40,210 bases of DNA from Alphaproteobacteria bacterium (GTDB lineage Bacteria > Pseudomonadota > Alphaproteobacteria > Acetobacterales > Acetobacteraceae): contig VGDL01000031.1 in the NCBI GenBank assembly GCA_016869735.1, positions 1 through 40,210 of the forward strand, in the 5' to 3' direction. The position numbers were made by a program, and so were the translations under genes. The notes under the pieces were generated by a model, which saw only the letters and a list, made by a program, of their open reading frames with translations, was not told the origin of the DNA and did not search any database. Positions 33,443-35,323 of this stretch are shown one piece after another; the stretch's first letter is position 1, and every line of letters starts with the position of its first letter.

Positions 33443-35023
33443 TCAGGCCCGCAGCACCGCCGGCGGTTCGGTGCGTTCGCGCTTGACCAAAAGCTTGTTC
33501 AGCGCATGCACATAGGCGCGGGCCGAGGCGACAATGGTATCCGTATCCGCCCCCTGGCCATCCACCAGCTTGCCGGCTTCTTCCAGCCGCACGGTGACCC
33601 GCGCCTGCGCATCCGTGCCGCCCGTGACGGATTGCACGGCATAGAGCTTCAGGTTGACTTCATGCGGGAAGGCCTGGCGCAGCGCATTGAAGGTGGCATC
33701 CACCGCGCCATCGCCCGCCGCCACCCCTTCGCGCCTTTCGCCATCCACTTCGAGCGCGATAGAGGCCGTGGGGCGGGTATTCATCCCCGTCGCGACCGTG
33801 AGTGCCAGCAGCTTCAGCCTATCATTCTGGCGGACCACCTCATCATCCACCAGCGCCACAATATCTTCATCATAGACCACCTTCTTGCGGTCCGCGAGGT
33901 CCTTGAAGCGGCGGAAGGCGTCGTTCAGCTGATTGTCGCCAATCTCATACCCCATGGCCTTCAGCTTGTCGCGGAAGGCAGCGCGGCCGGAATGCTTGCC
34001 CATCACCAGCGAAGATGTGGACCAGCCGACAGATTCCGGCGTCATGATTTCATAGGTGGATTTGTCCTTCAGCACGCCATCCTGATGGATGCCAGATTCA
34101 TGGGCGAAGGCATTGCGGCCCACAATCGCCTTATTGGGCTGTACATCAAAGCCCGTAATCGTGGCGAGCAAGCGGCTGGTCTTCAGGATATTCTGCGTGA
34201 CAATGCCATTGGCCACCGGGATCGCATCGGCGCGCGTGCGCAGCGCCATCACCACTTCTTCGATCGAGGCATTGCCCGCGCGTTCGCCAATGCCATTGAT
34301 GGTGGCTTCAATCTGGCGCACGCCGGCACGAATGGCAGCAAGCGTATTCGCCACCGCCAGGCCAAGGTCATTATGATTATGCGCGGACAGGATCACCTGA
34401 TCCGCCCCCGGCACGCGTTCCCGCACCATGGTGAAAATGCGCGTCATATCCTCAGGCAGAGCATAACCGACCGTGTCAGGGATATTGATGGTAGTAGCCC
34501 CCGCCTTGATGGCGGCTTCCACACAACGGCAAAGGAAATCCGGGTCCGTCCGCGTGCCATCTTCCGCCGACCATTCCACATCATCCGTGTGCTGGCGGGC
34601 GAGGCCCACGCTGCTGGTCACCAATTCCAGCACCTGTTCCGGTTCCAGCCGCAGCTTGACCCGCATATGCAAGGGACTGGTCGAAACAAAGGTATGGATG
34701 CGCTTGCGTGCCGCCGGCTTCACCGCCTCAGCCGCGCGCAGAATATCCGCCGGCGCGGTGCGCGACAGGCCGCAAATCACCGGGCCATCCTTGGCAAAAC
34801 GCTGCGCGATGGACAGCACGCTTTCAAAATCCCCCGGCGAGGCAATGGGGAAGCCCGCTTCCATCACATCAATGCCCAATTCCGCCAAAGCTTCCGCCAT
34901 GCGGAGCTTTTCCTGGAGGTTCATGGAAAAACCGGGGGACTGCTCACCATCGCGCAGCGTGGTGTCGAACATGATGATGCGGTTATCGGCCAGCTTGCCG
35001 AAAGAAGGATGATTTATGGCCAT
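33443..35023 (-). CDS. leuA: 2-isopropylmalate synthase
   Basis: A 526-residue enzyme for the first committed step of leucine synthesis, condensing 2-ketoisovalerate with acetyl-CoA. The catalytic domain contains MFDTTLRDGEQSPGFSM, EAGFPIASPGDFE, and the metal-binding HNHNDLGLAVANT; the C-terminal regulatory domain that binds leucine follows (KLLALTVATGMNTRPTASIA). I start it at the ATG at 35023, with an AGGGG about ten bases upstream; an in-frame ATG at 35044 is the alternative. A leader peptide and competing RNA pairings precede it, suggesting attenuation. Confidence 0.96.
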   Translation of the reverse strand: MAINHPSFGKLADNRIIMFDTTLRDGEQSPGFSMNLQEKLRMAEALAELGIDVMEAGFPIASPGDFESVLSIAQRFAKDGPVICGLSRTAPADILRAAEAVKPAARKRIHTFVSTSPLHMRVKLRLEPEQVLELVTSSVGLARQHTDDVEWSAEDGTRTDPDFLCRCVEAAIKAGATTINIPDTVGYALPEDMTRIFTMVRERVPGADQVILSAHNHNDLGLAVANTLAAIRAGVRQIEATINGIGERAGNASIEEVVMALRTRADAIPVANGIVTQNILKTSRLLATITGFDVQPNKAIVGRNAFAHESGIHQDGVLKDKSTYEIMTPESVGWSTSSLVMGKHSGRAAFRDKLKAMGYEIGDNQLNDAFRRFKDLADRKKVVYDEDIVALVDDEVVRQNDRLKLLALTVATGMNTRPTASIALEVDGERREGVAAGDGAVDATFNALRQAFPHEVNLKLYAVQSVTGGTDAQARVTVRLEEAGKLVDGQGADTDTIVASARAYVHALNKLLVKRERTEPPAVLRA

Positions 35024-35065
35024 GATAGGGGTTCCCCTGGGCATTCAATGGGTTGCGTGGAATGA

Positions 35066-35119
35066 AAGGCTTCCCCTGAGCGATGCCCGCCGCGCGCGGC
35101 AAGCCTTCACGCCCAGGGG
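35066..35119 (-). promoter_or_regulatory. Competing RNA pairings before leuA, candidate attenuator
   Basis: On the minus strand four segments come in order: CCCCTG (35119-35114), AAGGCTT (35107-35101), CAGGGG (35078-35073), AAGCCTT (35072-35066). Segment 1 pairs with 3 and 2 with 4, and the two pairings exclude each other, the layout of an attenuator. The 2-4 stem encloses a GCCGC/GCGGC mini-hairpin and is followed by a short pyrimidine tract. A second CAGGGG at 35039-35034 includes the leuA ribosome-binding site and could also pair with segment 1. Confidence 0.5.
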
Positions 35120-35208
35120 CGGATAAGTCGAAGCCCAAGTAGCGCGCAGGCGGGAGCAGGGGCAGAAACCCCATGATCCAGGCCGAAGCGACGCGAAACT
35201 TCACGCAT
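35107..35208 (-). CDS. Putative leucine leader peptide of leuA
   Basis: A 33-codon frame begins at the ATG at 35208 and ends ALLGLRLIRPWA before TGA. The four late Leu codons are CTA, CTT, CTT and CTT (35142-35125), codons that stand out in a GC-rich genome whose genes mostly use CTG. No ribosome-binding site precedes the ATG, but promoter elements place the transcription start at or next to its A, so it would be leaderless. A leaderless leader is known for trpL of Sinorhizobium. Its function as an attenuator sensor for leucyl-tRNA is inferred from codon content, position before leuA and the RNA pairings that follow. Confidence 0.6.
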   Translation of the reverse strand: MREVSRRFGLDHGVSAPAPACALLGLRLIRPWA

Positions 35209-35215
35209 GAAGCGG

Positions 35216-35245
35216 AGAATAGGAGGGGAGGGGGCGGGAAGGCAA
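35216..35245 (-). promoter_or_regulatory. Probable sigma-70-type promoter of the leuA leader
   Basis: On the minus strand TTGCCT (35245-35240), an 18-bp spacer and TATTCT (35221-35216) are followed after seven bases by the leader ATG at 35208. Each hexamer matches four of six consensus bases. Confidence 0.5.
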
Positions 35246-35268
35246 GGGGTTTTGCTGAGGGGACAGGT

Positions 35269-35323
35269 CAGGGAGGGCTTTGCCCTCCCTGAAACCCACC
35301 CACCAAAGGCCCGAGGCCTTTGG
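35269..35323. repeat. Pair of perfect hairpins, REP-like or terminator element
   Basis: Hairpin one has arms CAGGGAGGGC (35269-35278) and GCCCTCCCTG (35282-35291) with a TTT loop. Hairpin two has arms CCAAAGGCC (35303-35311) and GGCCTTTGG (35315-35323) with a CGA loop. They lie between the EamA gene and the leuA leader promoter, so they may end EamA transcription. The two-hairpin layout resembles dispersed intergenic repeats known in related genomes, from memory and not verified here. Confidence 0.6.

Follow-up and report, generated by a model that had tools for sequence, protein, structure and literature searches.

The stretch of DNA we analyzed (hereafter, the window) spans 40,210 nucleotides of contig VGDL01000031.1, from a member of the Acetobacteraceae. 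On its minus strand lies leuA, which encodes 2-isopropylmalate synthase and is preceded by a promoter-like hexamer pair, a short open reading frame and a set of complementary segments (Table 1). The frame runs from an ATG at 35208-35206 to a stop at 35109-35107, translates to MREVSRRFGLDHGVSAPAPACALLGLRLIRPWA and ends in ..ALLGLRLIRPWA. A preliminary description, made from the letters alone, had read this arrangement as a leader peptide, leaderless and rich in leucine, with a candidate attenuator before leuA; the promoter-like pair, the 33-codon frame and the four late Leu codons (CTA CTT CTT CTT) to which it pointed are all present. Its remark that CTA and CTT are unusual in this genome was overstated, as CTT is the second most common Leu codon in six genes of the window (47/253; CTA, 11/253), yet at these rates the probability that all four late codons would be CTA or CTT is approximately 0.003. 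In the two closest relatives, L138 and L199, the position of TATTCT reads TAAACT and TAATCT, respectively. Between 34950 and 35400, neither a sigma-70 consensus site under a strict promoter-scan rule nor a terminator-like site was detected. Farther upstream, between a gene for an EamA-type transporter and the leader, a double palindrome (AGGGAGGGC..GCCCTCCCT and CCAAAGGCC..GGCCTTTGG) occupies 35257-35323; it recurs upstream of leuA in L138 and L199, has a near copy at G000:C50 (96% over 69 bases) and, less closely matched, another at C45 (82%), and looks like a repeated palindromic element.

Table 1. Coordinates of leuA and of the features preceding it in the window
Feature	Position	Strand	Basis or remark
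leuA, 2-isopropylmalate synthase	33443-35023	minus	NF002087 and TIGR00973 above cut-off
-35-like TTGCCT	35245-35240	minus	TTGCCT also in relatives L138 and L199
-10-like TATTCT	35221-35216	minus	7 nt before leader ATG; 18-nt spacer from TTGCCT
Leader ORF (leuL-like), 33 codons + TGA, probably leaderless	35208-35107	minus	Frame kept in the two closest relatives; in-frame Leu enrichment
Terminal codons CTA CTT GGG CTT CGA CTT	35142-35125	minus	Presumed to sense leucine and to form the 5' strand of P1
Nucleotide block CTTCGACTTA	35133-35124	minus	CGACTTA/CGACTAA in family; present or varied elsewhere in class
P2 5' arm CCCCTGGGCG	35119-35110	minus	Leader stop directly after arm in window; arm carries stop in most relatives
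P2 3' arm CGCTCAGGGG	35082-35073	minus	Covariation; RNAalifold
Inner hairpin within P2 loop, predicted	35104-35085	minus	Minimum-free-energy fold
AAGCCT	35072-35067	minus	Predicted partner of leader GGGCTT (35136-35131) in window lineage
GCCCAGG at leuA Shine-Dalgarno	35042-35036	minus	Possible partner of leader CTTGGGC (35139-35133), read from sequence
leuA Shine-Dalgarno AGGGGA	35038-35033	minus	By eye

Comparison with related loci suggests that the leader frame is coding. Among the eight codons up to the CTT, at least three encode Leu in frame at 167 of 192 non-redundant loci, and the other two frames reach this number at 7 and 0 loci. The stop follows directly after a CCC codon in 133 of the 192 and two codons later in 51, the latter corresponding to the WA* ending found in the window. 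When the window and its two nearest relatives were compared, the codon changes in frame divided into 3 synonymous and 1 not, 6 and 2, and 3 and 3; read in the other frames, just 2 of the 33 codons that changed did so synonymously. The start of the frame is likewise patterned. A TTG..TANNNT pair followed by an in-frame ATG at 4-11 nt occurs at 53 of the 192 loci, versus 4 with an out-of-frame ATG and 0.6 in shuffled sequence, and in 38 of the 53 the distance from TANNNT to ATG is 6-7 nt. As 35 of these 53 loci belong to the family, the near-leaderless start recurs at least there; most of the 192 loci lack such a start under the TTG..TANNNT rule. The frame, its end and its spacing from the promoter-like pair recur in relatives. 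Two features associated with attenuators follow: the leader appears to carry a terminal run of codons for the product of the regulated pathway, and it lies upstream of the matching biosynthetic gene.

Beside the stop codon, a 10-bp hairpin, P2, shows covariation, and the CCCCTG..CAGGGG pairing of the preliminary description proves to be part of it. P2 positions are paired in 94.9% of cells versus 89.1% after shuffling (0/500 shuffles reach the observed value), a percentage that is inflated because alignment A1 and the 192-locus set required a minimum of P2 complementarity, with the shuffle comparison less affected. The covariation score was 0.299 versus 0.181 for shuffles (0/500), sliding the arms out of register left at most 56% paired, and RNAalifold, unaided, recovered the same ten pairs. 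The preliminary description had proposed relatives with a broken frame or unconserved paired segments as one observation that would count against it, and neither was found for the frame and this main hairpin. Its two further pairings fared less well. The first segment of the proposed AAGGCTT (35107-35101) and AAGCCTT (35072-35066) pair reads GAAAGCCTGCC in the two closest relatives, and folding instead predicts that AAGCC(T/C), kept as AAGCCT in L138 and as AAGCCC in L199, pairs with leader GGGCTT. Pairing of CCCCTG with a second CAGGGG at the leuA Shine-Dalgarno is not conserved, with a z of only -1.8 over 182 loci: the window has GCCCAGGGG at this site and its two closest relatives have GCCCAGGGA and GCCCGAGGA, and the pairing comprises 9 pairs in L004 and 8 in L199 and is broken in L138. 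Pairing of the P2 3' arm with downstream sequence, where many family loci contain CCCTGAGG-like copies, was weak (z -2.45).

A second interaction, P1, links the Leu codons themselves to the region before leuA. When the Leu-codon stretch of each leader was paired with its own or with foreign leuA upstream regions, the own region was strongly preferred (z -14.9 over 182 loci; controls, -1.4 and -1.8), and a second comparison over 148 loci gave z -14.2 (shuffled leaders, +1.1). We mapped 278 segment pairs over 151 loci. The strongest joined the Leu-codon segment to the Shine-Dalgarno region, -18..-7 of leuA (z -5.6), and the second strongest joined CGACUUANNNN to -30..-19 (z -5.5); the two fit a single antiparallel helix, and their reversed controls were near 0. 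Other top pairs were local or had a partner just after P2, and the third-ranked pair had a reversed control of -4.2. A z of -4 was passed by 8 real pairs and also by 2 of 278 reversed controls, so single values in this map are indicative only. Five-letter words complementary to the block CTTCGACTTA precede leuA at 69 of 158 loci, versus 33.9 in shuffled sequence and 40 for reversed words. TAAG and TAAGT, which would match the block at its UUA end, showed no enrichment before leuA, and P1 therefore does not explain the whole of the CGACUUA invariance.

Among the duplex tests of P1, only the pooled own-versus-foreign comparison is strong. The ungapped test per locus is weak, reaching p<0.05 in 15.6% of 96 family loci and 23.1% of 134 class loci; in this test and in the 182-locus test, a copy at the Shine-Dalgarno stood in as the P2 arm for L004. 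A segment test of leader -18..-1 against -60..-31 was set aside for its permutation sd of 40.6. The position of the P1 partner varies between lineages, and in the best duplexes the leader covers at least 4 nt of the Shine-Dalgarno window at 107 of 148 loci with their own downstream region versus 91 of 148 with a foreign one. In the window, the candidate partner at the Shine-Dalgarno (GCCCAGG with leader CTTGGGC, also listed for L138 and L199) is not favored by the predicted fold. Local hairpins at the Shine-Dalgarno, noted by eye for the window lineage, were not enriched overall (13 versus 10.1 shuffled, n = 158).

We modeled how a ribosome on the Leu codons could alter these structures. Equilibrium folding of 153 loci predicts that P1, with 13.9 expected pairs, coexists with P2 (0.88). 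A modeled stall at the Leu at -3 reduces P1 from 13.9 to 0.3 expected pairs and keeps P2 at 0.87, and a stall at the last CUU removes P1 and lowers P2 from 0.88 to 0.20. With the P2 covariation and the P1 coupling, this modeling suggests an RNA structure that a ribosome on the Leu codons could alter, a further attenuator property, and it fits a leucine-dependent release of leuA. The gain in mean unpaired Shine-Dalgarno is modest, from 0.37 to 0.45; exposure rises by more than 0.15 at 45 of 153 loci and falls at 7, versus 10 and 7 with a control footprint. In the window, the modeled stall lowers exposure from 0.43 to 0.14 because other pairings take over, and at L138, L199 and L005 it changes exposure little. 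Coupling of the Leu codons with the Shine-Dalgarno is thus seen across many loci, but in the window itself the folding models support neither this pairing nor a leader that masks the leuA Shine-Dalgarno.

The element is widespread around leuA. In the family sample, LeuA was found in 103 of 120 genomes, and with two truncated genes omitted this gave 101 loci, the window included. CGACTTA or CGACTAA stands ahead of leuA in 97 of them, mostly closing a Leu-rich frame, and three of the four others (L013, L062, L079 and L082) retain a closely similar block. Of 289 class genomes, 42, again including the window, contain the pattern CGACTTANNNNCCCCTGRNC, whereas its reversed control is present in 2; all 30 loci listed of the 42 lie upstream of a same-strand leuA-like gene, one of these at 30% identity. 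A scan of named genomes returned at least 119 stretches with the pattern, and the titles among the 80 matches listed include Acidiphilium, Gluconobacter, Komagataeibacter, Acetobacter and Caulobacter, together with metagenome bins labeled Azospirillaceae, Geminicoccaceae, Rhizobium and Novosphingobium. Loci L106-L253 have a leuA homolog within 600 nt in 142 of 148 cases; five of the six misses are near the end of the available sequence, and the sixth, L243, looks like chance. These loci were picked by the CGACTTA pattern, which makes the invariance of CGACTTA among them true by construction; the family loci and L254-L333 were picked by LeuA.

A search at E≤1e-120 detected LeuA in 134 of 278 class genomes. 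From class LeuA loci without the exact pattern we took 80 (two from one genome, G238), leaving out some weaker or truncated ones. A CGACTT-like word occurs in 21 of the 80, in some by chance; many carry a variant with Leu for Arg (..CTCCTTANNNGCCCCTGAGC..), others are without the element, and in 32 a script located the block together with a stem resembling P2. We also built a covariance model, R1, from 75 sequences, partly from genomes later searched with it, and applied it to the class and to a phylum-wide sample under Infernal's stricter filters. R1 matched 86 of the 278 class genomes, once each, and all 86 matches precede leuA: 78 lie within 400 nt upstream of LeuA, two lie approximately 410 nt upstream and are separated from LeuA by a cupin-domain gene, three precede a long-form, distantly related LeuA (TIGR00970 and NF002991 above cut-off) and three precede a LeuA cut by the contig end. 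Of the 134 genomes with LeuA, 80 have an R1 match and 54 have none at these settings. In the phylum-wide sample, for which the division between class and other genomes is not given, 55 of 299 genomes matched and 54 of these belong to the class; the lone match outside (E 0.008, inside a long open frame) is taken as chance. Checked individually, ten listed loci of this sample, the window included, and the match in one further genome (G534) all precede leuA, and a partial comparison of handles shows 19 of the 55 to be shared with the class search.

Two small groups of loci stand apart. At L345, L346 and L349, the leader element precedes the long-form 2-isopropylmalate synthase, and the short form was not found there at E≤1e-120, as if the control had been retained with the function through a replacement of the enzyme. 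At L352 and L353, the element is separated from leuA by a small gene with a cupin domain (PF07883), an arrangement that suggests a cupin-leuA operon under leucine control.

We consider it probable that the element is a ribosome-mediated leucine attenuator in which the sensing codons double as an anti-Shine-Dalgarno strand. By comparison, this reading draws on conservation of the frame and of where it stops, on its bias toward Leu and its near-leaderless starts, on P2 and the multi-locus P1 coupling, and on the link between model matches and leuA; from these we infer the transcript start, leader translation, stalling and the direction of control. The transcript would begin at the leader ATG, and the leaderless 33-codon peptide would be translated from it. 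With leucine plentiful, the ribosome would clear the terminal codons CUA CUU GGG CUU CGA CUU, reach the stop beside P2 and depart. P2 would then fold, and the Leu codons with CGACUUA would pair with a stretch reaching into the leuA Shine-Dalgarno, forming P1 and lowering leuA expression. With leucine short, a ribosome stalled on the terminal Leu codons would block P1, and leuA would be translated. Because P1 uses the Leu codons, these would serve both as sensor and as anti-Shine-Dalgarno strand. In the window, P1 has only a short Shine-Dalgarno portion, and a GGGCUU/AAGCCU stem stacked on P2 is predicted instead.

The main alternative is transcriptional attenuation, in which P2 would be a terminator, either intrinsic or aiding Rho, and a ribosome at the last Leu codon would cover the P2 5' arm and let polymerase proceed. 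In family loci, CUUA lies at a constant distance from the P2 arm, which agrees with this, as does the loss of P2 under the modeled stall at the last CUU. However, at least four T in the 8 nt after P2 occur at only 17 of 192 loci, so P2 is unlikely to serve as an intrinsic terminator class-wide, and the hairpin with U-tract of a classical attenuator seems to be present in single loci such as L255; the window region, as noted, has no terminator-like site, and termination leaves the coupling of P1 with the leuA upstream region unexplained. We therefore regard this alternative as possible but unlikely; the rarity of U-tracts together with the footprint modeling favors translational control across the class, and the output is probably mainly leuA translation. 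Termination may nevertheless operate in some lineages. At L255, from an AT-rich family member, P2 has grown into a long stem with eight T after it, likely a true terminator, and the output in that lineage may therefore have switched from translation to transcription; at L254, P2 is followed by TTTCTTTTT. For the circuit drawn in the preliminary description, the attenuator itself is thus well supported by sequence comparison, and the details of terminator and ribosome-binding-site masking are not: one of its pairings is unconserved, U-tracts are rare, and it is the Leu codons and CGACUUA, rather than CCCCTG, that couple to the leuA upstream region.

In nascent-peptide arrest of the TnaC type, a ribosome is held at the stop codon. 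An arrest of this kind here, with a LRLxxP-stop end responding to leucine or a related metabolite, would draw on LRLxxP being the commonest peptide end and on the frequency of a stop directly after P (133/192), but LLL variants lack the Arg, the window group continues to WA*, and CGA and CTT are kept as codons rather than merely as residues; we judge it improbable. If the frame were incidental and the element a structured RNA recognized by a ligand, a small RNA or a protein, this would account for a family CGACUUA kept beyond the apparent needs of coding or P1, but the strong in-frame Leu bias, the conservation of where the frame stops and its near-leaderless starts make this the least probable reading of all.

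If the attenuator reading is correct, alphaproteobacteria would have a defined, testable control by leucine of the step that commits to its synthesis, and the leader would be a clear case of sensing codons doubling as an anti-Shine-Dalgarno strand on a leaderless transcript. Model R1 is usable for annotating leuA leaders. A puzzle is that 96-97 of 101 family loci retain the seven nucleotides CGACUUA, when the peptide could be preserved with synonymous codons. A broader proposal, which we regard as evenly poised, is that the element is an old, alphaproteobacteria-wide and uncatalogued leucine gauge whose sensing codons also cover the leuA ribosome-binding region, that it was kept even where leuA is of the long form, and that it arose in parallel to the actinobacterial LEU element; the strongly kept CGACUUA may add a further reading step to this gauge.

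The enterobacterial leu attenuator, represented in Rfam as the Leu leader, is a terminator/antiterminator switch. It resembles the element described here in sensing Leu codons within the leader peptide of a leu gene, and differs in that the window region gave no credible match to any Rfam leader, the hits at E≤1 being sub-threshold ones to mir-3192 and HOTTIP_1; CUA control codons have been discussed for it (PMC1183508). The parallel drawn in the preliminary description, to the leaderless trpL of Sinorhizobium, is borne out by published accounts of trpL in Sinorhizobium meliloti, in which transcription attenuation yields the small RNA rnTrpL (PMC7298713, PMC10117765): both are alphaproteobacterial leader peptides with a transcript starting at the ATG, and trpL differs in its amino acid, tryptophan, and in relying on transcription attenuation. 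Alphaproteobacterial RNA motifs have been described as serC, speF, suhB, ybhL and metA, with no leuA leader among those named in the abstract, and the words leucine and isopropylmalate are absent from the main text of that report (PMC1273637). Our literature search, whose reach did not extend to the Vitreschak et al. 2004 survey of proteobacterial attenuators, found no apparent description of a leuA leader of this kind.

Closer counterparts come from another phylum. In Streptomyces lividans, leuL1 is described as leaderless, with 15 residues including five Leu and no typical terminator (PMC8079986), and the leuA leader peptide of Corynebacterium glutamicum is reported to contain four consecutive Leu codons (PMC4046766); both place a leucine leader peptide before leuA, as here. 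For the actinobacterial LEU element upstream of leuA, Leu codons are proposed to pair with the leuA Shine-Dalgarno, and its authors, citing Leu-codon mutants, considered a regulatory protein likelier than classical attenuation (PMC1262725), a doubt that counsels caution for an attenuator reading here too. Compared by description, LEU, known from reports on Actinobacteria, contains an internal pseudoknot, whereas the alphaproteobacterial element, analyzed for P1, P2 and pairwise segment couplings, has a simple covarying hairpin beside the stop and a CGACUUA block. The two share their location upstream of leuA and a leader peptide with a run of Leu, and no terminator is described for LEU (PMC1262725); the pairing of Leu codons with the Shine-Dalgarno proposed for LEU has a counterpart here in the coupling over many loci, though not in the folds of the window. 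The LEU element is the nearest described system.
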